DNA of 37,767 nt, taken from positions 1 through 37,767 of the forward strand of contig CACKSF010000008.1 in NCBI GenBank assembly GCA_902602795.1, written 5' to 3'. The DNA comes from an uncultured Fidelibacterota bacterium. Lineage in GTDB: Bacteria; Fidelibacterota; Marinisomatia; Marinisomatales; UBA1611. Made by a program: the position numbers and the translations under genes. Below are positions 2,965 to 23,067 of the stretch, piece after piece. Numbering within the stretch: position 1 is the first letter of the stretch; each line of letters opens with the position of its first letter. The notes beneath the pieces were generated by a model. It was not told the origin of the DNA. It saw nothing but the letters and a program-made list of their open reading frames with translations, and did not search any database.

Positions 2965-4317
2965 ATGAATATTAAAACTTTACTTTCAGAGAACGAACTA
3001 CCCAGAAGCTATTACAATATTATTTCTGATTTACCAACATCGATACCTCCAGTTCTTCACCCGGGAACAAAAAATCCTGTTGGCCCAGAAGATCTATCAC
3101 CCCTTTTCCCATTGGAATTAATAAAACAAGAAGTTTCAAATTCTCGGTTTATTGAAATTCCTGACGAAGTAATTGACATATATAAATTATATAGGCCTTC
3201 TCCGCTTTACAGAGCAAGAGCACTTGAAAAGCTATTAGATACACCTGCAAAGATATATTATAAATACGAAGGCGTTAGTCCTACAGGTAGTCACAAACCA
3301 AATACTGCAATTCCTCAAGCATATTATAATAAAGAAGAAGGAATAAAAAAAATTACTACAGAAACTGGCGCAGGCCAATGGGGTTCATCATTAGCATTCG
3401 CTTGCTCGAAATTTGGTATTGATTTGGAAGTTTTCATGGTTAAAGTAAGTTATGAGCAAAAGCCATATAGAAAAGCAATGATGGAAGCTTTTGGAGCGAA
3501 GTGCATTGCAAGCCCCTCTAATCAAACAAATGTAGGTAAAAAAATACTTTCAGAGAATCCAGATTCAACTGGTAGTCTCGGAATAGCAATTTCTGAAGCA
3601 GTAGAAAGATGCGCGATGTCTAGCAATGTTAAGTATGCTCTTGGCTCTGTTTTAAATCATGTACTAATGCACCAAACAATAATAGGTTTAGAGGCACAAA
3701 AACAATTAGAAAAATTAGATGCTAAACCAGATATTATAGTAGGATGCACAGGCGGTGGAAGCAACTTTAGCGGAATCGCACTTCCATTTTTAGGAGATTC
3801 AATAATTAATAATGATAAATTAATACTAAAAGCTATCGAACCTTCAGCCTGTCCTTCTCTAACAAAAGGTAAGTACGCATACGATTTTGGCGATACTGGA
3901 CAGATGACACCTTTAACAAAAATGCATACTCTAGGCTCTCAGTTTGTTCCATCGGGTTTTCATGCTGGTGGATTAAGATACCATGGAATGGCTCCATTAG
4001 TAAGTCATTTAGTTAATGAAGGGTTCATCATACCTGAGGCATACAATCAGACTGATATTTTTAAAGCAGGTTTATTATTTGCGAGAGCTGAAGGTATTAT
4101 ACCAGCTCCAGAGGCAAATCATGCTGTCAAAGGGGCCATAGAATCTGCACTTGATTGCAAGTTAAAGGGTGAGAAAAAAACTATCTTATTCAATCTATGC
4201 GGTCATGGTTATTTTGACATGCAAGCCTATATTGATTATTTTGACAACAAACTTTTTGATCACGAATATTCCGATAACGAAATAGCGATGGCCCTTTCGG
4301 GACTTCCCGCAGTATAG
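2965..4317 (+). CDS. trpB2: TrpB2-type tryptophan synthase beta-like PLP enzyme
   Basis: A 450-aa fold-type II PLP enzyme. The ORF track begins at a TTG 12 nt earlier, but GAGGA sits 5 nt before the ATG at 2965, so I take that start. The PLP lysine is K111 in GSHKPNTA, ETGAGQWG follows, and the phosphate-binding loop is GCTGGGSN (from ~260). The long N-terminal part with RPSPLYRA and the LHTLGSQFVPSGFHAGGLRYHG-type region are characteristic of TrpB2 (COG1350) rather than TrpB1. Characterised archaeal TrpB2 enzymes make tryptophan from indole and O-phospho-L-serine. No trpA or other trp gene is adjacent, which argues for indole salvage. It is followed after 75 bp by a serine-kinase-like gene. 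From codon ~260 onward the sequence is duplicated at 21.8 kb. Confidence 0.93.
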   Translation: MNIKTLLSENELPRSYYNIISDLPTSIPPVLHPGTKNPVGPEDLSPLFPLELIKQEVSNSRFIEIPDEVIDIYKLYRPSPLYRARALEKLLDTPAKIYYKYEGVSPTGSHKPNTAIPQAYYNKEEGIKKITTETGAGQWGSSLAFACSKFGIDLEVFMVKVSYEQKPYRKAMMEAFGAKCIASPSNQTNVGKKILSENPDSTGSLGIAISEAVERCAMSSNVKYALGSVLNHVLMHQTIIGLEAQKQLEKLDAKPDIIVGCTGGGSNFSGIALPFLGDSIINNDKLILKAIEPSACPSLTKGKYAYDFGDTGQMTPLTKMHTLGSQFVPSGFHAGGLRYHGMAPLVSHLVNEGFIIPEAYNQTDIFKAGLLFARAEGIIPAPEANHAVKGAIESALDCKLKGEKKTILFNLCGHGYFDMQAYIDYFDNKLFDHEYSDNEIAMALSGLPAV

Positions 4318-4332
4318 TTTATATCGATAATT

Positions 4333-4372
4333 TATTCTGAGGTATTTAGTATAACCTGAATACCTCAGAATA
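4333..4372 (+). promoter_or_regulatory. Intercistronic perfect inverted repeat between trpB2 and the kinase-like gene
   Basis: TATTCTGAGGTATT and AATACCTCAGAATA are perfect 14-nt arms around a 12-nt loop. There is no T-run, so it is not a classical terminator. It ends 20 nt before the downstream start codon. It could be an mRNA-stability or attenuating stem, or a dyad operator. The same structure is in the duplicate at 22408-22447. Confidence 0.7.
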
Positions 4373-4392
4373 GTATTCATTAGGGATTATTT

Positions 4393-4821
4393 ATGGTTGT
4401 TGATCAAATTAGGAACAAGCTTGTTTTAGAAAAAAAGAGTTTATTGCATAATGAATTAATGCCTCATGAAAAAGTAAGTAACAGAGGAATAAATCAACTG
4501 AATAACTACATTGGCAATATCCATCATGATATTATTCTGCCTAGTATTTTAATATGTAATAAAACCAATGTGATTATTGATGGTCACCACAGATTCCATG
4601 CCTTAAAATTACTGAACATCGATCTAATTCCTGTTTCATTGATAGACTATAATTCTGATTTAATTTTGACTAATGAAGAGAATAATTTATCAAAAAAAGA
4701 AATTATAGACTCTGCTAAGAACAAAAATATCTTTCCTCCGAGAACATCAAGGCATGTAATTAATTTTAAAAATCATAATTTTCCAATAATTATTATTTCA
4801 GACCTAAGAGTAATAAATTAA
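4393..4821 (+). CDS. ParB/Srx-fold protein resembling free L-serine kinases (SerK/SbnI-like)
   Basis: A 142-aa protein with ATG preceded by AGGGA. It contains ELMPHEKV (H25-E26) and NVIIDGHHRFHALKLL (~57-72), the ParB/Srx-type core. In the ADP-dependent free serine kinase SerK of Thermococcus and in staphylococcal SbnI, an N-terminal glutamate is catalytic and a DGxHR motif contributes to the site; both elements appear here. Those enzymes are longer, so this may be a minimal version. It lies 75 bp after trpB2 on the same strand, and TrpB2 enzymes use O-phosphoserine. I therefore infer that it makes O-phospho-L-serine for TrpB2. The alternative is a small ParB-like DNA-binding protein. An identical gene lies at 22468-22896. 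Confidence 0.72.
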   Translation: MVVDQIRNKLVLEKKSLLHNELMPHEKVSNRGINQLNNYIGNIHHDIILPSILICNKTNVIIDGHHRFHALKLLNIDLIPVSLIDYNSDLILTNEENNLSKKEIIDSAKNKNIFPPRTSRHVINFKNHNFPIIIISDLRVIN

Positions 4822-4920
4822 AATATACTAAATCCGAACATAGCACTATCCTATTACGTAATAAAAGAAGCACAAATAATAGCCTTATTTATTGAGAGAT
4901 GCGGTATATAATTAGAATTT

Positions 4921-5002
4921 AAATGAAGCACGGGTGTAATCCTAGTGTGTAATACTTTTTGCCCTTTATAGATGGGTTTTTTGTTTGTGGGATGATAGGT
5001 AA
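4921..5002 (+). repeat. Dispersed intergenic repeat A, copy 1
   Basis: The repeat is AAATGAAGCACGGGTGTAAT, then GTGTAATACTTTTTGCCCTTTATAGATG, then TTTTTTGTTTGTGGGATGAT. Six other copies occur, all on the plus strand (8.3, 13.9, 17.9, 23.0, 27.6, 34.25 kb). Most lie shortly before a gene start. Function unknown. It ends 8 nt before the LRR gene start. Confidence 0.85.
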
Positions 5003-8939: not shown

Positions 8940-8988
8940 ACACCCTACATTATTACTATTTATTGGGTTGGCTTGGGAGAAAAATTGA
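8938..8988 (+). pseudogene. Remnant of a tandem copy of the 8472 gene (signal peptide only)
   Basis: Read in frame from 8938, the bases encode KHPTLLLFIGLAWEKN and then TGA. This closely matches KHLPLLLFIGLAWGQN at the start of the preceding gene. The rest of the copy is missing. Its TGA overlaps the ATG of the next gene (TGATG). Confidence 0.75.
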
Positions 8989-9356
8989 TGAAATGGTATA
9001 GGTTTCAAACATATATACTGTGGCCCTCAAGTTTGGTGTTTTATACTTTAACATATTTTATGTCGGGTATAATGATAGATGGTATAATTGTTAACGACAT
9101 ACCTTTTGATACAAACTACATTGATGCAATAGTTAATTATTTGATACCAATTAATATTTTACACAGTTTGCTGCTTACATACCTATTTCATATAAAAAGC
9201 CATTTAAGCCTAAAATTTTTCATCGTATCAAATATAATATTAGGGATTGCCAGTTATTTATTTTTTGGAATTCCTATTGATGTATTATACATCATTCCTT
9301 ATCTAGTTCTTAATTTCATTTATTATAATAAAAGAAAAGAGATTTTTACGAGCTAA
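8988..9356 (+). CDS. Small polytopic membrane protein of unknown function
   Basis: The ORF track starts at a TTG (8973), but that stretch is the remnant signal peptide in another frame. The ATG at 8988, preceded by GGGAGA, gives 122 aa beginning MKWYRFQTYI. There are about four hydrophobic segments (YILWPSSLVFYTLTYF, AIVNYLIPINILHSLLLTYLF, FFIVSNIILGIASYLFF, VLYIIPYLVLNFIYY), so it is an inner-membrane protein. I recognise no family or catalytic motif. Coupling by TGATG to the upstream remnant suggests it was fused to or followed that copy. Confidence 0.68.
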   Translation: MKWYRFQTYILWPSSLVFYTLTYFMSGIMIDGIIVNDIPFDTNYIDAIVNYLIPINILHSLLLTYLFHIKSHLSLKFFIVSNIILGIASYLFFGIPIDVLYIIPYLVLNFIYYNKRKEIFTS

Positions 9357-9481
9357 TTAATAATTGCAATGATAATCCTTAAATAATAAACACCTCATAT
9401 TTTTTACAAATACATCCCTATCTATATAAAGTCCAAACAAAGTCAATTCGCTATGAGAGTGTGTTTATTGTAGGTTAAGCT

Positions 9482-9534
9482 GATACGTATAGTATAATGT
9501 CATTCTGTCCTTTTAATACTTTAAAGGACAAGTT
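9482..9534 (+). repeat. Dispersed repeat B, partial copy, with hairpin
   Basis: GATACGTATAGTATAATGTC...TTCTGTCC matches the beginning of the longer repeats at 10520 and 14990. TGTCCTTT-taatactt(t)-AAAGGACA (9510-9534) forms an 8-bp hairpin. About 16 nt later CACATTAGTGAGGTTTTTTG looks like a degenerate terminator of the CCCCAC-NTTC-GTGGGG family. Confidence 0.65.
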
Positions 9535-9595
9535 TCCTTACACACATTAGTGAGGTTTTTTGTTTTAAGGGGTGCATTACACTCCCCATATTAAC

Positions 9596-9901
9596 CTAGA
9601 GCACAAAGTCATCTATCTCTGTAGCAAGTAAAGGAGCATAATGACGCTCCATTGTGATAACAGATGAATGCCCAAGTAACTTGCTCACTTCATAGATGGG
9701 TCTGCCTTGTTTGATTAGATTATAACCAAAGGTTCTCCCAAGGTCGTGGAAACTAATATCAGGGATACCAAGCCTTCTAGCTTCTTTTTTGAACTTGTGT
9801 GTTATTAAGTCTTTGCTATAGACCCAGAGTTCATCAAGTCCCCTTAATATCTCCTGAGCTTGGTTATTCAGCTTGATTAATCTCTTACCACTTTTATGTG
9901 A
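9596..9901 (-). pseudogene. Tyrosine recombinase (integrase) C-terminal fragment 1
   Basis: A 101-codon open frame with no usable start; an in-frame TAA lies just upstream. It encodes KSGKRLIKLN (the catalytic lysine hairpin region), then FHDLGRTFGYNLI, SKLLGHSSV and MERHYAPLL, ending DDFVL. The motifs match the second half of a phage-type integrase catalytic domain. The HxLR arginine position is Gly (HDLG), while LGH and the tyrosine (HY) remain. The SAM-like core-binding half is missing. It lies ~115 bp before the duplicated tRNA-Asp 3' end at 10015, the usual layout of an integrase next to its attachment site. A second, differently damaged copy is at 17640. Confidence 0.88.
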
Positions 9902-10014
9902 TTAGGGAATATGTTTTCCATCGATATAGAGCGTATTTCACCGCTTTAGCACCAGTCTAGTAAGTGAATCTGACAAACAGATTGAAGAGATTATCCCTTA
10001 TTTTATCAAGGAGA

Positions 10015-10340: not shown

Positions 10341-10519
10341 TTTTGAATCACTTCTATTTATATGAATAAGTAGTAAAATTTGAAAAGCGAAGTTTAAAAT
10401 GGAATTATTAGTTGTTATTTCAGTTTGTGCAATCATAGTTATGTTCTCTTAAGCACTCTTGTGGGCTATGAGGATTTTTATATATACTTATGTAAGTCTG
10501 CAAGTGAGTTTAAGATGAT

Positions 10520-10770
10520 ACTTCCTATATAATGTCCTTCTGTCCTTTTAACACTTGAGAGACAAACGGACAACAAATGCACCCTTATACCACTTTCTAA
10601 AATTAGAAGGTGTAGTATTATATATGGTAGATAACAATCTCGGATAAAAATAATTTAATTCAACTGTTTAATTTTTGTTTATAAATGTTTAATTTTGTTG
10701 AATTTTATTTTATGAAAGATAAATTGTCAGATTTGATTGAAAATATACTTTACTACATTAGTCCAGCTGT
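10520..10770 (+). repeat. Dispersed repeat B, full copy 1
   Basis: About 240 bp with clear similarity to 14990-15235: TATATAATGTCCTTCTGTCC ... GGACAACAAATGC ... ATAATTTAATTCA ... GAAAATATACTTTACTRCATTA. It lies ~170 bp before a small membrane gene, as does the other copy (~30 bp). No coding function is evident. The 10341-10519 stretch before it holds only a 17-codon hydrophobic ORF (10399-10452) that I do not call. Confidence 0.75.
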
Positions 10771-10942: not shown

Positions 10943-11380
10943 ATGGATAATAAAATAATAGGGTCTCTATTAGTTTATCTCTCATTATTAGGGACCATAA
11001 CCTATGCACTTTTTTTTGAAGGTTTACCAGGTAAATATAGCCTATTCTTAAGCTGGCCATCCTTTCTTGTAGTTTTTGGAGGGGGTACAGGTATCATATT
11101 GATGAGAAAGCATACTTATCAAGATAATCAATTAGGTAAATACTTAAAAAGAGAATTTATTCTTGCTGGTTGGATCGGATTTATGATAGGGCTTGTCCTG
11201 TTGTTTGCAGGTTTTAGTGACGAAGCATGGATGTTTACATCTTTTCAAAAAATTGTTCATTTTGGTTCCCCTGCTGTTGTCCCAGTTTGTTATGGATATG
11301 TTGGAGGTGCCATGGTTGAAGCCCTCTTTACTAAAGGCAGTGCACCAGTATTATCAAGAACATCAGAGGAAGAGGAATAA
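10943..11380 (+). CDS. Four-TM membrane protein, first of two tandem paralogues
   Basis: A 145-aa protein with four hydrophobic segments (~7-25, 33-52, 70-90, 108-126) and an acidic tail (SRTSEEEE). SWPSFLVVFGGGTGIILMRKH loosely recalls the first half of MotA/TolQ-type channel subunits, but it is too short and lacks the rest, so no function is assigned. The next gene is a clear paralogue: both share the pattern KH..(K/Q)DN(E/Q)LGK.L(R/K)(K/R)....GWI. The gap to that gene is 3 nt and the acyltransferase follows, so the three are probably cotranscribed and may form a membrane complex. The ATG follows AAAAAGGAAAAATAGA. Confidence 0.82.
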   Translation: MDNKIIGSLLVYLSLLGTITYALFFEGLPGKYSLFLSWPSFLVVFGGGTGIILMRKHTYQDNQLGKYLKREFILAGWIGFMIGLVLLFAGFSDEAWMFTSFQKIVHFGSPAVVPVCYGYVGGAMVEALFTKGSAPVLSRTSEEEE

Positions 11381-11383
11381 TCC

Positions 11384-11830
11384 ATGCAAATTAAAATTTT
11401 AAGAGGTACATCACTTTATATAACCACCGATAGGATGATTGGATATGTGGTAATGACCATTTCGTTGAACGGAGCAATCTACCATGCATTATTTGTCGAT
11501 GGTGCAGCCGGAGGATTTGGAAGTTTTCTTCATTGGCCAACAACCTTCTCTGTCTTGGTAATCGGTCTATCTATGACCTACATGAAAAAACATGCGCTAA
11601 AGGATAATGAATTGGGAAAAATGTTAAGAAAGGACATGGTCCTCTCAGGTTGGATATTGTTCATGCTAAACGCAGTACTCATTGGAGGTGGAATGTATAG
11701 TGAGGATAACAAAGAGCTGGCGAATATGGGGCCAGCACTCATACGATTAGTTCTCTGCGTACAGTATGGATACGTAGCCGGAATTATTTTTGAGACCTTT
11801 TACACAAGGGATGTTAGAAAAGAATCATGA
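11384..11830 (+). CDS. Four-TM membrane protein, second tandem paralogue
   Basis: A 148-aa paralogue of the preceding gene with four hydrophobic segments and the conserved cytoplasmic loop KKHALKDNELGKMLRKDM. The ATG at 11384 is 3 nt after the previous stop and preceded by GAGGAAGAGGAATAA, which overlaps the end of the upstream gene and implies coupling. It has a longer polar N-terminus (MQIKILRGTSLYITTDR) than its partner. Function unknown. Position suggests it acts with the upstream paralogue and perhaps the acyltransferase 73 nt downstream. Confidence 0.82.
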   Translation: MQIKILRGTSLYITTDRMIGYVVMTISLNGAIYHALFVDGAAGGFGSFLHWPTTFSVLVIGLSMTYMKKHALKDNELGKMLRKDMVLSGWILFMLNAVLIGGGMYSEDNKELANMGPALIRLVLCVQYGYVAGIIFETFYTRDVRKES

Positions 11831-11903
11831 TTCAAGTTTTTATAATTATGAAAAAGATTATCTTTAAAACCTCCTTAAATAATCACTCTTGAGTTAATAT
11901 ATC

Positions 11904-13595
11904 ATGGAATCTCAAAGAATACACTCTCTTGATGCTATGCGTGCAATTCTAATGCTCCTAGGTGTTTACTTTCACCTTTCATTAGCCTATGTAACCTTTG
12001 GTGATGGTAGCGAGGGGTGGGTAAAAGATCAAAGTTCTACTAGTCCCTTTTTTGATTTTGTATTTGGCGCATTACATTATTTTAGGATGCATGGATTTTT
12101 TATGATAGCAGGATTTTTTGGATCTCTTCTTTATCATAAGAAAGGTGCAAAAAGAATGATGACCAACAGAGTCAAAAGAATTCTACTTCCACTGCTTGTA
12201 ATGATAGCCCCTATAAAACTATTGATTACCTATTTCAGGAATTTTTCATTTCAAAGAAATGAAGGATTTTCTATCTGGGAGTCTTTATTACGAGGTTTTA
12301 GCATTTTTGAATTACCTGACCGTTGGGAACTTCTTCCTTTTGACACGGCTCATTTATGGTTTTTGAATTATCTTTTCTTCATGTCACTGTTAGCCTATCT
12401 TTTAAAATCACTAGTTTCTAAGTATTCTAGATTCCACGCCATCGATGATGGAATCTTTTTTTCAAATGTTCTTAGAAAAATAACGTCAAAGCTATTTTTA
12501 AAACCCTGGATTGGTACACTTCTTTTTTCCTTAAGCTATGGTTTAGTTATGATGCTTTTGAAAAGAGCTGATGCACAGTTTGGAGCACCCTTTTGGTCCT
12601 GGTACTGGTTCACAGATTTGAATGGTATTAAAACTTTTGTTGCCTTTGGATTTTTCTACTTTCTAGGTTGGCATATGTATCACTACAAAAACCTCATAAG
12701 CCAAGTCGGTTTAAAAAAACAACTAAGTATCTTGCTAGTGTATACTATCTCAATATGGGGGCTCACTTATGGGGTTTTCAGTTTATTTCCTTATAGTATT
12801 TATCCGCAAATCCAATACGGATTAGGTGAGACAAATGATGTTACACTAACTGTTGATATGTCAACGTTTGATTTTGAAAAATTTTACGAAGATGGTAATG
12901 AACTTCGAGGGGTATTTGTAAATGGCAATTTTAGTGAATGGTGCGGGGAATGTGATAAAGCGATTATGGAAGATATTGGGGAAGGTATCTATACAAAAAA
13001 ATTACAGATGTACAACGGTGACCATAAATTCATATTTTCTATAAATGGATGGGACGGTGCTAATAGGGATAAAGATAATGATTACGAAGAATGGATTTCT
13101 CCTGGGAAAGAGGGGCTGGATTGCAAACCTTTACCAGAGTTTAAAGAATACACAATTCAAGTCTTTAAGGAGGATATTATACTGGATACCATATGCTGGA
13201 AAGAGTGTACGGACTGCGAAGGCAATATCACCAATTTAACTTCAGCTGGTATGAAAGAACCTCTTGGGGAAAGCCCATATAATTTACTTTATTTATTCCT
13301 ATGGAATTTTGGTGTTCCGATGTATATAATGCTGGCGATGGCTATCTGCATAAGGTTTTTTAGGAAACAGTCAAAGAAAATGAGATATATCAGTGATGCT
13401 TCTTACTGGGTCTATATTATCCATCTACCGGCAACTCACTTTGCTCCTGGTCTATTTCATGGAGTCGCAATAAATGTATTTTTAAAATTTATTATTTCCT
13501 CCATTTTAGTTACCATCATTTGTTTTGGAAGTTATCACATTTTTGTCAGGAATACGTTCATTGGAAAGTTCTTAAATGGACGAAAATATGATTAA
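11904..13595 (+). CDS. Acyltransferase-3 family (OpgC/MdoC-like) with inserted glycan-binding-like domain
   Basis: A 563-aa protein. The N-terminus RIHSLDAMRAILMLLGVYFH has the acyltransferase-3 signature with the expected histidine (H24). HGFFMIAGFFGSLL and RVKRILLPLL follow as in OpgC/MdoC succinyltransferase-like proteins. Between the late TM segments, residues ~308-440 form a soluble insert: VTLTVDMSTFDF, GVFVNGNFSEWCGECDKAIM, GDHKFIFSINGWD, ILDTICWKECTDCEG. This pattern resembles CBM48/CBM20-like beta-sandwich domains in secreted FCB proteins. TM helices then resume (LLYLFLWNFGVPMYIML to the end). I infer transfer of an acyl group to a cell-surface glycan held by the insert, which would be extracytoplasmic. 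Substrate unknown. Confidence 0.85.
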   Translation: MESQRIHSLDAMRAILMLLGVYFHLSLAYVTFGDGSEGWVKDQSSTSPFFDFVFGALHYFRMHGFFMIAGFFGSLLYHKKGAKRMMTNRVKRILLPLLVMIAPIKLLITYFRNFSFQRNEGFSIWESLLRGFSIFELPDRWELLPFDTAHLWFLNYLFFMSLLAYLLKSLVSKYSRFHAIDDGIFFSNVLRKITSKLFLKPWIGTLLFSLSYGLVMMLLKRADAQFGAPFWSWYWFTDLNGIKTFVAFGFFYFLGWHMYHYKNLISQVGLKKQLSILLVYTISIWGLTYGVFSLFPYSIYPQIQYGLGETNDVTLTVDMSTFDFEKFYEDGNELRGVFVNGNFSEWCGECDKAIMEDIGEGIYTKKLQMYNGDHKFIFSINGWDGANRDKDNDYEEWISPGKEGLDCKPLPEFKEYTIQVFKEDIILDTICWKECTDCEGNITNLTSAGMKEPLGESPYNLLYLFLWNFGVPMYIMLAMAICIRFFRKQSKKMRYISDASYWVYIIHLPATHFAPGLFHGVAINVFLKFIISSILVTIICFGSYHIFVRNTFIGKFLNGRKYD

Positions 13596-13763: not shown

Positions 13764-13904
13764 TACTTTATTTTTACACCTACACATCCCTCATTATAAA
13801 CCAAAACAAAGTCCTACAAAATCCGTTAGTTTTAAAATAGCCCCAAACACTAATCTAATTTTTATGGATATATGCACGGAGGATTTAGTATATAGATAGC
13901 TTCT

Positions 13905-13985
13905 AAATAAAGTACGGGTGTAATACTTGTTTGTAATACTTTTGCCCTTTGTAGATGAATTTTTTGTTTATCGGGTGATGAATAA
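13905..13985 (+). repeat. Dispersed intergenic repeat A, copy 3
   Basis: AAATAAAGTACGGGTGTAAT ... TTTGTAATACTTTTGCCCTTTGTAGATG ... TTTTTTGTTTATCGGGTGATGA. The upstream 13764-13904 stretch holds no gene but shares CACATCCCT..TATAAA..CCAAACAAAGTC with 9410-9450. Confidence 0.8.
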
Positions 13986-14882: not shown

Positions 14883-14989
14883 GAACTGAATGCTCTTGAA
14901 ATACTTAAAAAAAATTAATAAGGAAAATAAAATTAACGCAAAACTAAATTCAATTATTTTAAACCAAAGAAAACAATAATTGTTTAATC

Positions 14990-15235
14990 TAATACGTCCA
15001 GTATATTGTCCTTCTTTGCTTTTAAGACTTGAAGGGACAAAAGGACAACAAATGCCCCCTACACCTCCTTGTTAGGTAGAAAGGCAGTATTATATCTTGT
15101 AAATAACCTTCTCACATTAAAATAATTTAATTCAGGGGTTTATTATTTGTCTAAAATTGTTTAGTTTTGTTTAATTTTATTTTAGAAAAAATAAATTTTA
15201 TTATTTAAGTGAAAATATACTTTACTGCATTAACC
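14990..15235 (+). repeat. Dispersed repeat B, full copy 2
   Basis: Homologous over its length to 10520-10770. It contains TTGTCCTT ... AAGGACAA as 8-nt inverted arms, ACAACAAATGCCCCCTACACC, an AT-rich centre, and GAAAATATACTTTACTGCATTAA. It ends ~28 nt before the next gene. The 14883-14989 stretch before it holds no gene. Confidence 0.75.
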
Positions 15236-17008: not shown

Positions 17009-17536
17009 ATGATTTTGTCTGGAAAAGAAATAGAGTCAAGAGTTGGTGATGATATTATAATTAAACCCTTTGATAAAAAAAAAATAAACCCGAATAGTTA
17101 TAATTTATCTTTGCATAATAAATTGATTACATACAAAGAATCACCATTAGATATGAAAAAAAATAATCAAGTTGAAAAATTAACAATTCCTCCTGAAGGA
17201 CTAGTTTTAGAGTCAAATCGTTTATATTTGGGTAGAACAATAGAATATACCGAAACAAAAAATTTAGTTCCTATGCTTGAGGGCAGGTCTTCAATTGGAA
17301 GGCTTGGTCTTTTTGTACACGTTACAGCAGGGTTTGGAGATGTTGGTTTTAAAGGATTTTGGACACTTGAAATTTTTTGTATACAGCCAATTAAAATATA
17401 TCCAAATGTAGAAATATGCCAGGTCTATTACCATACATTAGAAGGGGATTACGAAAACTATTCAAGTGGAAAATACCAAAACAATCAAGGTATCCAATCA
17501 AGTATGCTGTTTAAGGATTTTAAAATTGATAAATAA
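17009..17536 (+). CDS. dcd: dCTP deaminase family protein
   Basis: A 175-aa protein. PFDKKKINPNSYNLSL is the family N-terminal motif. EGRSSIGRLGLFVHVTAG (91-108) is the nucleotide-binding RSS motif, and GFKGFWTLE places the catalytic glutamate at E121. It converts dCTP to dUTP, or directly to dUMP in bifunctional members, supplying thymidylate synthesis. Length and motif spacing are normal for the trimeric family. It stands alone between a terminator and an integrase fragment, so it may be accessory, like mobile-element copies of dcd. The C-terminus (QGIQSSMLFKDF) is consistent with the family's flexible tail. Confidence 0.9.
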   Translation: MILSGKEIESRVGDDIIIKPFDKKKINPNSYNLSLHNKLITYKESPLDMKKNNQVEKLTIPPEGLVLESNRLYLGRTIEYTETKNLVPMLEGRSSIGRLGLFVHVTAGFGDVGFKGFWTLEIFCIQPIKIYPNVEICQVYYHTLEGDYENYSSGKYQNNQGIQSSMLFKDFKIDK

Positions 17537-17639
17537 TAGGTGGAAAAACTTTCGGAGCTTTATGCAAGTTTAGGTGAGCTACTATGAAGGGATTTTTTAT
17601 TTAAGGGAGAGCACTACACTCCCCTATTATTCTATAGCT

Positions 17640-17858
17640 TCAGTCATCAATCTCAGTAGCAAGTAAAAAATCGCAATGATGCTCTGTTGTATTCACAGAT
17701 GGATGACCCAGTAGTTTGCTTACTTTATAGATAGGTCTGCTTTGTCTAATTAGATTATATCCAAAGGTTATCCTAAGGTCGTGGAACCTAATATCAGAGA
17801 GACCAAGCCTTCTGGCTTCTTTGTTGAACTTGTGTGATAAAAGAAGCCCAAATAATAA
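17640..17858 (-). pseudogene. Tyrosine recombinase (integrase) C-terminal fragment 2
   Basis: It encodes SHKFNKEARRLGLSDIRFHD and on through HDLRITFGYNLI, VSKLLGHPSV and TTEHHCDFLLATEIDD. It is homologous to fragment 1 (9596-9901), and the homology continues into the downstream ~60 bp. Here the HxLR arginine is kept, but the nucleophilic tyrosine is His (HH instead of HY). The N-terminal part in the track ORF (MKMWLLFGLL) is unrelated junction sequence. Confidence 0.88.
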
Positions 17859-17943
17859 CCACATTTTCATAGTGATATGTGTGGGAGTTGTGGTTCATTT
17901 TTAAACTAAATAATTACGAGGATGTGATCAATAAATAACCTTT

Positions 17944-18015
17944 AAATAAAGCACAGGTGCAATACTTTTTGCGTTTTATAGATGGTTTTTTTTATTTGTG
18001 TGATGATTGGTATAT
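17944..18015 (+). repeat. Dispersed intergenic repeat A, copy 4
   Basis: AAATAAAGCACAGGTGCAATACTTTTTGCGTTTTATAGATGG, then a T-run and ATTTGTGTGATGATTGG. Shorter than other copies in the middle. Unusually, the next gene runs toward it on the minus strand. Confidence 0.75.
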
Positions 18016-18692: not shown

Positions 18693-19802
18693 CTAGTATA
18701 TGAAATAATTATTTTTTCTATTATCTATGTCGCGAGTCAGATTTTCTTTACTAACAAAATCACTTAATTTAGAGTTTTGATTCAAAATGCATAGTAAGGA
18801 CTTTACAGTTGAGACTTCTACTCCATGTACTCCATCAATGAATTCGTCGTTACTCATATTGTAATTTGTTAATTGATTTAAATCCCAAATCTCGAAATTA
18901 CTACTATTAATTCTTTTACGAACTTCAGGTAAAATTTTATCAATATATTTTTGTTTACCATTTTTTCTTATTTCTAAATTAATAATCTTAGGTAAAGGAT
19001 TGATAATTGCAACTACGTAAATATTTTTTTCATCACAGTAATTAACCAAATCTTTCAATTCATAAACTGATTCTATGTTAACATCATTAGATGATCCAAA
19101 CCAATAACCTCCATTTCTTACTCTACTTAGATCCTTTGAAAATTTTTGCATGTCGTCTTCAAACATTAACGACTTCTTTACTTCTCTTTTAAAATTCCAA
19201 CTTCCATCTTTTTGAAATCCTGTATTTTCTAAAACTGCTGCGAGTCCAATTTTATTTTTGGTATCATTTTTAAATACATAATCAAAAATAATAGATAGAT
19301 CGTATTCAAAAATAATCTTGTATAGGAATGATCTAAGATAGTCAGTGTCTGGAAAAAATTGAAGATGAGACCAAAAGTCAGCTTCTCTTGGGTTATTTTT
19401 TGAGAATTGAAACATAATTTGATCTAACCCAAGTATTAAAATAGTAGGTAACTTATCCTTTGGAATATTTTTTAAAAAATATAAATAATCCGATATCGTC
19501 TTTAATTTTAAACCGCTGGCATTATAAAATGATGTTTCAAACATTTCCTTTCTAAAAGCCATTACTCTTGAAGTTCCTAACACCCAAATGTGTTTTTTTT
19601 CATTAAGTGTTAATTCTTTCCACACAATTGGAGAATAGTTTTTATGATGATGGTGGCCTATAATATAGTCCTCATTACTTAAAATTAATTTATCTAGTGG
19701 GGTGAAAAATTCTCCAGTTTGAAAAAGAATTAGAATTATTATTCCCATTGTAAAAATAAATGGTGAAAGAAAAATTAAAACCCTACCTGTAAATTTTTTC
19801 AT
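18693..19802 (-). CDS. SGNH/DltD-like acyl-transfer partner of MBOAT
   Basis: A 369-aa protein with an N-terminal membrane anchor (VLIFLSPFIFTMGIIILILF) and an extracytoplasmic domain. VLGTSRVMAF supplies a GxS-type serine (S78), and FIDGVHGVE near the end supplies the Asp-x-x-His pair (D323, H326) of the SGNH hydrolase fold. INPLPKII fits a core strand. Its ATG overlaps the stop of the MBOAT gene (TAATG), so the two are translationally coupled. By analogy with DltB/DltD and AlgI/AlgJ-AlgX systems, I infer that it finishes transfer of an acyl (often acetyl) group to a surface polymer. Substrate unknown. Confidence 0.8.
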   Translation of the reverse strand: MKKFTGRVLIFLSPFIFTMGIIILILFQTGEFFTPLDKLILSNEDYIIGHHHHKNYSPIVWKELTLNEKKHIWVLGTSRVMAFRKEMFETSFYNASGLKLKTISDYLYFLKNIPKDKLPTILILGLDQIMFQFSKNNPREADFWSHLQFFPDTDYLRSFLYKIIFEYDLSIIFDYVFKNDTKNKIGLAAVLENTGFQKDGSWNFKREVKKSLMFEDDMQKFSKDLSRVRNGGYWFGSSNDVNIESVYELKDLVNYCDEKNIYVVAIINPLPKIINLEIRKNGKQKYIDKILPEVRKRINSSNFEIWDLNQLTNYNMSNDEFIDGVHGVEVSTVKSLLCILNQNSKLSDFVSKENLTRDIDNRKNNYFIY

Positions 19803-21247
19803 TAGAATTGAAAATAAATAAATGGTTTTTCAAACTTACTAAAGTGAATGATGGATGAAACCATACCATAATAGATAAGTATCCTTAAGATTTGCTTAAT
19901 TTTTTTTGAACGTATCCATTTTATGCTAAAAAGATCACGCTCAGTTTTATGAATGAATTTTTCAATGAAAATTAGTAGCAATATAAATGGAATCCCTCCT
20001 CTATTAGAATTTGGGAAATCAAAATTTTTAAAAGTATTTATCAAGTATCCTAATGCATCATTAATATTTTCGCTTCTAAAAAATACCCATGAGAGTGTGG
20101 TGAAGAAATATGTTGTCCCAATCTGGAATATTCTGTTTAATAATTTTAAAAAACTTTCTTTGTTATTCAGATCTTTTTTATAAACGTGGTTACCAGGTAT
20201 TATTATGGATGGTATGTAAAACATTACATGAACTATTCCCCAAATTACAAATGTCCAACTTGCTCCATGCCACATTCCACTAACTAAAAAGACAATAAAC
20301 AAATTTTTGATTGTAATTATTTTTCCATTTTTTGAACCTCCAAGCGGTATGTATAAATAATCTCTAAACCACGTTGACAAAGATATATGCCACCTTTTCC
20401 AAAATTGGGGTAGACTTTTTGCAAAATAAGGAAACTTAAAATTAGACATTAATTCTAGTCCTAACAACTTAGCTGTGCCAATAGCTATGTCAGAGTACCC
20501 ACTAAAGTCGCAATAGATTTGGAATGAAAAATATATTAATCCTACAAATAATACGCCGCCATTATATGCATTATAATCTTCAAAAATCATATTAACATGT
20601 ATTGAAAGAGTATCAGCAACAACTACTTTTTTAAATAACCCCCAAAGTATTAATCTTAGTCCCTCTATGCCTTGCATATAACTAAAAGACCTAGCTGTAT
20701 TTATTTGAGGTAAAAGATTTTTAGCTCTCTCTATTGGTCCAGCAACTAACTGTGGAAAAAAGCTCACAAATGTTGCGAATGATATAAAATCTTTATTTGG
20801 CTTGAGCTTTTTATAATATATATCTAAAGTGTAGGACATTGTTTGAAAAGTGTAAAATGAAATTCCTACAGGAACAATTATTTTGAATAATGTTGTATCT
20901 TGTTTTTCAAAACCAATCAATCTTAATAAATCAATCCATGAATTGATAAAAAAGTTGAAATATTTAAAAAAACCTAAGACACTAAGATTGAAAAAGATGC
21001 TAATCCATAAATAGAATTTTTTAGTTTTATTTTCAACAGAATTGTAAATCCTCAATCCCATAAAATAATCTATAATTGTCGACATGACAATCAAAGAAAG
21101 ATATCTCCAATCCCACCAACCATAAAATATATAGCTTGATAATAAAATAAAACTATTTTGGATTTTTAGATTTTTGGATAATACAATCCAATAAAAAAAG
21201 AAAACTATTGGTAAAAAAATTAAAAATTCTAAAGAGTTAAATAGCAT
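19802..21247 (-). CDS. MBOAT-family O-acyltransferase (AlgI-like)
   Basis: A 481-aa polytopic protein. It contains VPVGISFYTFQTMSYTLD, SFFPQLVAGPIERA, CDFSGYSDIAIG, PQFWKRWHISLSTWFRDYLY and SGMWHGASWTFVIWG, the standard AlgI/PatA/DltB signature. The conserved histidines are at H287 and H327. Length is normal for the family. It moves an acyl group from a cytoplasmic donor across the membrane to a partner, here the SGNH-like protein encoded immediately downstream with a 1-nt overlap. The pair probably O-acetylates an exopolysaccharide, cell-wall or secreted glycan. It is read opposite to the flanking accessory genes. Confidence 0.95.
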   Translation of the reverse strand: MLFNSLEFLIFLPIVFFFYWIVLSKNLKIQNSFILLSSYIFYGWWDWRYLSLIVMSTIIDYFMGLRIYNSVENKTKKFYLWISIFFNLSVLGFFKYFNFFINSWIDLLRLIGFEKQDTTLFKIIVPVGISFYTFQTMSYTLDIYYKKLKPNKDFISFATFVSFFPQLVAGPIERAKNLLPQINTARSFSYMQGIEGLRLILWGLFKKVVVADTLSIHVNMIFEDYNAYNGGVLFVGLIYFSFQIYCDFSGYSDIAIGTAKLLGLELMSNFKFPYFAKSLPQFWKRWHISLSTWFRDYLYIPLGGSKNGKIITIKNLFIVFLVSGMWHGASWTFVIWGIVHVMFYIPSIIIPGNHVYKKDLNNKESFLKLLNRIFQIGTTYFFTTLSWVFFRSENINDALGYLINTFKNFDFPNSNRGGIPFILLLIFIEKFIHKTERDLFSIKWIRSKKIKQILRILIYYGMVSSIIHFSKFEKPFIYFQF

Positions 21248-21792: not shown

Positions 21793-22392
21793 ATGTGTAG
21801 ATTAGATATCATAGCAGGATGCACAGGCGGTGGAAGCAACTTTAGCGGAATCGCACTTCCATTTTTAGGAGATTCAATAATTAATAATGATAAATTAATA
21901 CTAAAAGCTATCGAACCTTCAGCCTGTCCTTCTCTAACAAAAGGTAAGTACGCATACGATTTTGGCGATACTGGACAGATGACACCTTTAACAAAAATGC
22001 ATACTCTAGGCTCTCAGTTTGTTCCATCGGGTTTTCATGCTGGTGGATTAAGATACCATGGAATGGCTCCATTAGTAAGTCATTTAGTTAATGAAGGGTT
22101 CATCATACCTGAGGCATACAATCAGACTGATATTTTTAAAGCAGGTTTATTATTTGCGAGAGCTGAAGGTATTATACCAGCTCCAGAGGCAAATCATGCT
22201 GTCAAAGGGGCCATAGAATCTGCACTTGATTGCAAGTTAAAGGGTGAGAAAAAAACTATCTTATTCAATCTATGCGGTCATGGTTATTTTGACATGCAAG
22301 CCTATATTGATTATTTTGACAACAAACTTTTTGATCACGAATATTCCGATAACGAAATAGCGATGGCCCTTTCGGGACTTCCCGCAGTATAG
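21793..22392 (+). pseudogene. 5'-truncated trpB2 (C-terminal 195 codons)
   Basis: Apart from a junction start (MCRLDIIA), the 199-aa frame is identical to the last ~190 residues of the trpB2 at 2965, from GCTGGGSN onward. It lacks the PLP lysine and the N-terminal domain, so it cannot be an active enzyme. At the left edge the DNA is still partly similar to the original (AGATATCATAGCAGGAT against AGATATTATAGTAGGAT). Confidence 0.93.
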
Positions 22393-23067
22393 TTTATATC
22401 GATAATTTATTCTGAGGTATTTAGTATAACCTGAATACCTCAGAATAGTATTCATTAGGGATTATTTATGGTTGTTGATCAAATTAGGAACAAGCTTGTT
22501 TTAGAAAAAAAGAGTTTATTGCATAATGAATTAATGCCTCATGAAAAAGTAAGTAACAGAGGAATAAATCAACTGAATAACTACATTGGCAATATCCATC
22601 ATGATATTATTCTGCCTAGTATTTTAATATGTAATAAAACCAATGTGATTATTGATGGTCACCACAGATTCCATGCCTTAAAATTACTGAACATCGATCT
22701 AATTCCTGTTTCATTGATAGACTATAATTCTGATTTAATTTTGACTAATGAAGAGAATAATTTATCAAAAAAAGAAATTATAGACTCTGCTAAGAACAAA
22801 AATATCTTTCCTCCGAGAACATCAAGGCATGTAATTAATTTTAAAAATCATAATTTTCCAATAATTATTATTTCAGACCTAAGAGTAATAAATTAAAATA
22901 TACTAAATCCGAACATAGCACTATCCTATTACGTAATAAAAGAAGCACAAATAATAGCCTTATTTATTGAGAGATGCGGTATATAATTAGAATTTAAATG
23001 AAGCACGGGTGTAATCCTAGTGTGTAATACTTTTTGCCCTTTATAGATGGGTTTTTTGTTTGTGGGA
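21816..23067 (+). repeat. 1252-bp direct repeat, copy 2
   Basis: It appears identical to 3741-4992. It ends exactly within TTTTTTGTTTGTGGGA, after which the two loci differ (GGCCAAAAAG here, TGATAGGTAA there). The hairpin lies at 22408-22447 and repeat A copy 5 at about 22996-23067. Confidence 0.95.
22468..22896 (+). CDS. Second, identical copy of the serine-kinase-like ParB/Srx protein
   Basis: A 142-aa protein identical to the product of 4393-4821, with the same AGGGA ribosome-binding site and upstream hairpin. HE26 and DGHHR are intact, so it could be functional if transcribed. Its partner trpB2 is truncated here and no promoter was duplicated, so expression depends on upstream read-through. 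The complete absence of differences means a very recent duplication, gene conversion, or an assembly artefact. Confidence 0.75.
   Translation: MVVDQIRNKLVLEKKSLLHNELMPHEKVSNRGINQLNNYIGNIHHDIILPSILICNKTNVIIDGHHRFHALKLLNIDLIPVSLIDYNSDLILTNEENNLSKKEIIDSAKNKNIFPPRTSRHVINFKNHNFPIIIISDLRVIN

Follow-up and report, generated by a model that had tools for sequence, protein, structure and literature searches.

An acyltransferase-3 protein with an internal CBM48-like domain encoded beside shortened MotA homologues in a Fidelibacterota genome

Acyltransferase-3 (AT3) proteins acylate sugars outside the cytoplasm, with acyl-CoA as the donor whose acyl group is passed through the membrane (PMC12423673, PMC9558356), and a DxxRx10H motif has been defined for the family (PMC12423673). 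How stand-alone AT3s recognize their acceptors, and whether they need partner proteins to do so, is an open question (PMC9558356). The protein considered here is like the stand-alone AT3s of the MdoC/OpgC type (PF01757, TmAT superfamily) in having ten predicted core transmembrane (TM) helices and the DxxRx10H motif, and like the AT3-SGNH proteins (OafA, OafB, and OatA) in joining this core to a soluble domain predicted to be extracytoplasmic; in the latter proteins, this domain has been suggested to work on the acceptor glycan. It differs from MdoC/OpgC in carrying an internal, CBM-like domain of ~155 residues in the loop between TMH7 and TMH8, and no opgG or opgH was identified in the window. 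In the AT3-SGNH proteins, by comparison, the domain is C-terminal and a catalytic SGNH hydrolase, whereas here it lies within the protein and is of the CBM48 type. The two genes beside it encode small proteins that share four TM helices with MotA and PomA (MotA_ExbB family).

The window, by which we mean the whole 37,767-nucleotide stretch of DNA analyzed (contig CACKSF010000008.1 of assembly GCA_902602795.1), is contig 8 of the 59%-complete genome of a marine Marinimicrobia bacterium; single cells and MAGs of Candidatus Marinimicrobia / Neomarinimicrobiota are among its relatives. The cassette within it consists of three close open reading frames on the same strand, separated by gaps of 3 and 73 nt (Table 1). 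A preliminary description of this DNA had pointed out two tightly spaced paralogues upstream of the acyltransferase, and this arrangement was borne out (paralogy at E about 1e-22; a gap of 3 nt between the two genes). The AT3 and both small genes are conserved in other genera, with orthologues of the second small gene in the same tandem order in three further genomes (G015, G005, and G025). The cassette genes are under purifying selection, with dN/dS of about 0.1–0.4 computed on relatives (~0.18–0.38 for the small proteins; 0.19 for the AT3 pair L002/L086, and 0.09 for the insert of that pair). The AT3 copy in G001 has in-frame stops.

Table 1 Positions of the cassette genes, their parts and the nearest repeats in the window.
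Feature	Position	Strand	Basis
Repeat in the intergenic region preceding the cassette, with another copy (79% identical) at 14982-15232	10508..10760		
Mini-MotA 1 (145 aa), four TM helices, TM1-TM2 joined to TM3-TM4 via a 19-residue loop	10943..11380	+	
Mini-MotA 1 shortened cytoplasmic loop RKHTYQDNQLGKYLKREF, replacing the ~103-residue MotA cytoplasmic domain	11105..11158	+	
Mini-MotA 2 (148 aa), paralogue of mini-MotA 1	11384..11830	+	
Mini-MotA 2 shortened cytoplasmic loop KKHALKDNELGKMLRK	11585..11632	+	
Acyltransferase-3 (AT3) with internal CBM48-like domain, 563 aa	11904..13595	+	Pfam Acyl_transf_3 and predicted model
AT3 DxxRx10H motif (D10, R13, H24)	11931..11975	+	Invariant in the family
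CBM48/CBM20/AMPK-like insert in the TMH7-TMH8 loop, predicted periplasmic	12801..13268	+	
AT3 C-terminal part: TMH8-10 plus cytoplasmic tail	13275..13592	+	
Dispersed intergenic repeat (~95 bp) downstream of AT3; further copies at 4903, 8287, 17925 and 22978	13881..13980		

The AT3 matches the Pfam family Acyl_transf_3 (PF01757) with E=1.2e-31 and a score of 110.5 bits (curated cut-off 31), and the three residues of its DxxRx10H motif, located in TMH1, are unchanged in 10 of 10 relatives. In the predicted model (mean pLDDT 68.5), ten long helices lie outside the insert; assigning the helices N-in gives a mostly positive-inside pattern and makes the segment that links TMH7 to TMH8 (residues 295–457; 14 K/R versus 33 D/E) periplasmic. 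The earlier view of an acyltransferase-3 protein split by a soluble domain is upheld by these results, with an insert of ~155 residues (about 300–455). A PDB fold search with the same model (mean pLDDT 68.5) returned no AT3-type match. The best NCBIfam model was MdoC, and because its score of 122.3 bits lies below the NF003014 equivalog cut-off of 338, we rejected an MdoC/OpgC identity and refer to the protein as MdoC-like. Pfam detected no SGNH domain in it, and the protein ends after TMH10.

AT3 relatives examined outside the phylum are without the insert: the aligned best matches from a plasmid collection (Spirosoma and Pseudoalteromonas; ~385–400 aa) match both flanks with nothing comparable between them. 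This survey outside the phylum consisted of one effective scan of genome contigs together with the plasmid collection. A single-protein AT3 query against the contigs confirmed nothing, and the alignment query, of limited sensitivity because it is based on two peptide patterns, matched only Neomarinimicrobiota genomes (including 'bacterium TMED46' and 'bacterium TMED217'). Another membrane acylation gene lies some 5 kb away from the AT3 in the window (18693–21247, minus strand): it encodes an MBOAT O-acyltransferase (E=9e-26), and the gene after it a 369-aa protein that matches nothing in Pfam.

The insert is Cys-rich (C346, C349, C431, C435, and C438), and its kinship emerged from its wider family. 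Neither the window insert taken alone (18.3 bits to the pullulanase X25 Pfam model) nor a paralogue protein (20.2 bits to AMPK1_CBM) reached the cut-off (~27), and phmmer against the PDB with the single insert sequence gave no match, the family alignment being needed. Secreted proteins of the phylum carry homologous modules that did exceed the cut-offs (AMPK1_CBM 31.8 and 37.4 bits; CBM_48 28.0 and 30.1 bits), and a profile of 18 modules matched pullulanase (3.5e-5), the AMPK-beta CBM (6.7e-4), SEX4 (0.003), and also branching enzymes in the PDB. Structure prediction of the insert, proposed in the preliminary description, helped in part: Foldseek with the AT3 model matched SEX4 and AMPK-beta CBMs at probability 0.99–1.00, but with weak E-values (0.02–0.06) and with low confidence in parts of the insert (block pLDDT 27–72). 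Because the homologous modules score above their cut-offs and both the PDB profile and Foldseek find CBMs, we accept the homology of the insert to the CBM48/CBM20 group, and the resemblance first suggested for it is thus supported, although the window insert itself scores below the Pfam cut-offs and its fold is modelled at low confidence in parts.

Like the CBM48, CBM20, and AMPK-beta glycogen-binding domains, the insert keeps two aromatic residues, W345 and W383, which we take to be the two aromatic positions of the AMPK glycan site. Unlike them, it is Cys-rich, has a longer C-terminal part, lacks the ligand lysine in its window form, and is embedded in a membrane enzyme. Carbohydrate binding, which we infer from the homology, is not assured for the window insert, which has another residue (KFIF) in place of the lysine found in the AMPK CBM site. 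A divergent second form of the insert, found in G002:C49, G016:C8, G016:C18, and G001, keeps YKF/YRF and the second Trp. Instead of binding glycans, the insert could be an E-set domain with a structural or regulatory task, capping the periplasmic face of the AT3 or docking a partner protein; E-set domains can also serve to dock proteins, a weak match is to the T9SS Plug protein, the Pfam scores of the insert are sub-threshold, and the AMPK ligand residues are partly lost in the window form. We nonetheless consider this unlikely, given that W383 is invariant in 10 of 10 family members and that the same module occurs on secreted proteins in a typical CBM context (three of the scanned module-bearing secreted proteins have GH16, one of which also has GH5 and CBM6).

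As a separate observation, several secreted proteins (L092:7147-8619, L150, L153, L154, L160, L161, and L011) bear the CBM48-like module, often as tandem copies, and some of them carry GH16, GH5, CBM6, dockerin, DUF1800, or T9SS-type C-terminal domains.

The two small proteins, which the preliminary description called paralogous 4-TM proteins without recognizing their family, are loop-less homologues of MotA, and we refer to them as mini-MotAs. Searched against relatives, either one matches proteins of ~265 aa via their first ~65 residues; these longer proteins are MotAs (MotA_ExbB, 1.6e-26) and are followed by MotBs with MotB_plug and OmpA domains. Profile–profile comparison with hhalign aligned mini-MotA to MotA at a probability of 98.6% (E=6e-16), PDB matches of the mini-MotA profile were led by MotA/PomA chains, and across the phylum TM1–2 and TM3–4 of the mini-MotAs match opposite ends of full-length MotA. 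Both MotA-type halves are recognizable (YALF..G..GGFG.F.S.PSF in TM1–2; G..G..IG... and YG in TM3–4).

What sets the mini-MotAs apart from MotA and PomA is the reduction of the cytoplasmic stretch, the loss of ion-path threonines, and the lack of an adjacent B subunit. We take PomA T158 and T186 to be the ion-path threonines; the equivalent of T186 is lost in all 14 mini-MotAs examined and that of T158 in 13 of them, with changes of T to F and T to V at these positions in the window proteins. Gene tables around the mini-MotAs list no adjacent MotB or ExbD-like gene. The stretch between TM2 and TM3 is 19 residues long in 14/14 mini-MotAs examined, versus 103 in MotA. The motif K/QDN(E/Q)LGK, already noticed in both proteins, forms the core of this loop, whose length is the same in all 14 homologues, and is what remains of the MotA cytoplasmic part. 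Two-helix condensed domains (the CCD2 class, ExbB) have been described among non-flagellar homologues (PMC12505986), and the cytoplasmic part of the mini-MotAs is smaller still. A predicted mini-MotA model (pLDDT 52) was set aside, and no mini-MotA was confirmed in viral contigs.

The window genome encodes a full-length MotA elsewhere, in a MotA-MotB-FliF-FliG operon. Strong matches to TM1–2 of the mini-MotAs fall in MotAs of the window's own family, which suggests a local origin from such a protein; the sequences thus suggest that the mini-MotAs derive from a MotA of their own lineage through loss of the cytoplasmic domain and the ion-path threonines. Given the recognizably MotA-like TM3–TM4 core, with PDB matches led by MotA and PomA, and the full-length MotA and MotB encoded elsewhere in the same genome, one could imagine a mini-MotA ring that teams up with this MotB, or with another single-TM partner, and draws on a proton or sodium gradient to drive the AT3 or glycan export. 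We regard such an ion-motive unit as improbable and disfavor a PMF-driven motor, because both threonines are lost in the window mini-MotAs, the cytoplasmic domain is gone, and no MotB/ExbD-like gene is adjacent. Since FliG coupling and the ion path are lost and MotB is not adjacent, a scaffold or regulatory role is likelier than a motor.

Other observations were made on MotA and its surroundings in this group. A conserved MotA-MotB-FliF-like-FliG operon occurs at L097:3568-8084 (G000:C14), and also at L100 and L101; FliG_C was above its cut-off in 48 of the 61 genomes searched, and the flagellar export gene FlhA was found in 4/61. Most of these genomes therefore appear to encode a rotor–stator set without a flagellum, for which we found no report in the literature (open-licence papers gave none on Marinimicrobia MotA, FliG, or stators), and which is possibly more interesting than the AT3/mini-MotA finding itself. 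A hydrophobic protein of 122–127 aa is encoded near mini-MotA genes in the window (8973–9356) and at L092:2978-3346 (79% identical).

The AT3-insert proteins were found in eight genomes, all within the window's family, and seven of these contain a mini-MotA (P=1.4e-5 by a hypergeometric test within the family that treats related genomes as independent). A mini-MotA lies within about 130 nt at 6/11 AT3-insert loci (partial fragments excluded), as a pair in the window, G015, G005, and G025, and singly in G001 and G002:C49; the mini-MotA genes are downstream of the AT3 in G015, G005, and G001 and upstream in the remaining linked loci. The AT3s linked to a pair form one clade (support 100/100) and those linked to a single mini-MotA another (100/99), while the others lack an intact mini-MotA neighbor. 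The linkage of AT3 and mini-MotA is thus genuine but specific to two AT3 clades, and the co-occurrence raised originally is supported (7/8 genomes; adjacency at 6/11 loci). The enzyme does not generally need the mini-MotAs, because five AT3-insert loci are without an intact adjacent one. The second AT3 copy in the same genome is preceded, 2.3 kb upstream, by a remnant of a mini-MotA C-terminus.

The surroundings of the cassette bear on how this adjacency arose. Dispersed intergenic repeats of ~90–95 bp recur in the same orientation at 4903, 8287, 13881, 17925, 22978, 27597, and 34239, and two remnants of tyrosine-recombinase C-termini flank the cassette on the minus strand (9450–9950 and 17500–18000, the second with a Pfam Phage_integrase match of 1e-9). 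Between G015 and G005 (L083, L084), dS is 0.011 for the AT3 versus 0.14–0.17 for the neighboring mini-MotAs, which points to recombination around the AT3. Given the flanking repeats, the recombinase remnants, and this disparity in dS, linkage without interaction is possible: the cassette may have been shuffled within a repeat-rich region, leaving mini-MotAs that act independently of the AT3 and that do occur without it (in G004 and G169, and in G002, G015, and G025 on contigs apart from it). We think it fairly unlikely that shared history alone explains the arrangement, as the adjacency is kept over three genera and in both gene orders, suggesting selection rather than inertia, and as the pair-linked AT3s form a single clade.

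An integron attC interpretation of the ~95-bp repeats was dropped, since three copies folded as single strands did no better than shuffles. The window also contains a 1264-bp direct repeat of 99.8% identity (3729–4992 and 21804–23067), which includes a 142-aa ORF as well as a portion of a PALP-family gene and is either a recent duplication or an assembly artefact.

Our preferred reading, to which we give close to an even chance, is that the AT3 is a glycan acyltransferase of the inner membrane, that its CBM-like domain presents the acceptor on the periplasmic side, and that the mini-MotAs are non-conducting accessory or scaffold subunits. The AT3 core, with its ten TM helices and DxxRx10H motif, would take an acyl group from cytoplasmic acyl-CoA and transfer it at the periplasmic face, where the CBM48-type beta-sandwich between TMH7 and TMH8 would sit over the periplasmic mouth and hold or present the acceptor glycan, much as has been proposed for the fused SGNH domains of AT3-SGNH proteins. 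The mini-MotAs would most likely serve the linked AT3 clade as a non-conducting oligomeric membrane scaffold or as a regulatory partner. It is conceivable, though we hold it rather doubtful, that a stripped rotary-stator fold has been reused as a hetero-oligomeric scaffold for an AT3 with a spliced-in glycan-binding domain, and that the three proteins form a glycan-acylating complex of an undescribed kind.

Open-licence papers held no report of AT3 plus CBM48, and no description of an AT3 with a CBM-like insert combined with cut-down relatives of MotA turned up in the literature covered. Because this family unites an AT3, a CBM-like domain within it, and conserved partner genes, acceptor choice could be probed by deleting the domain. 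The mini-MotAs, for their part, are natural stator cores minus the torque-generating region, which makes them suited to studying what the bare core does.
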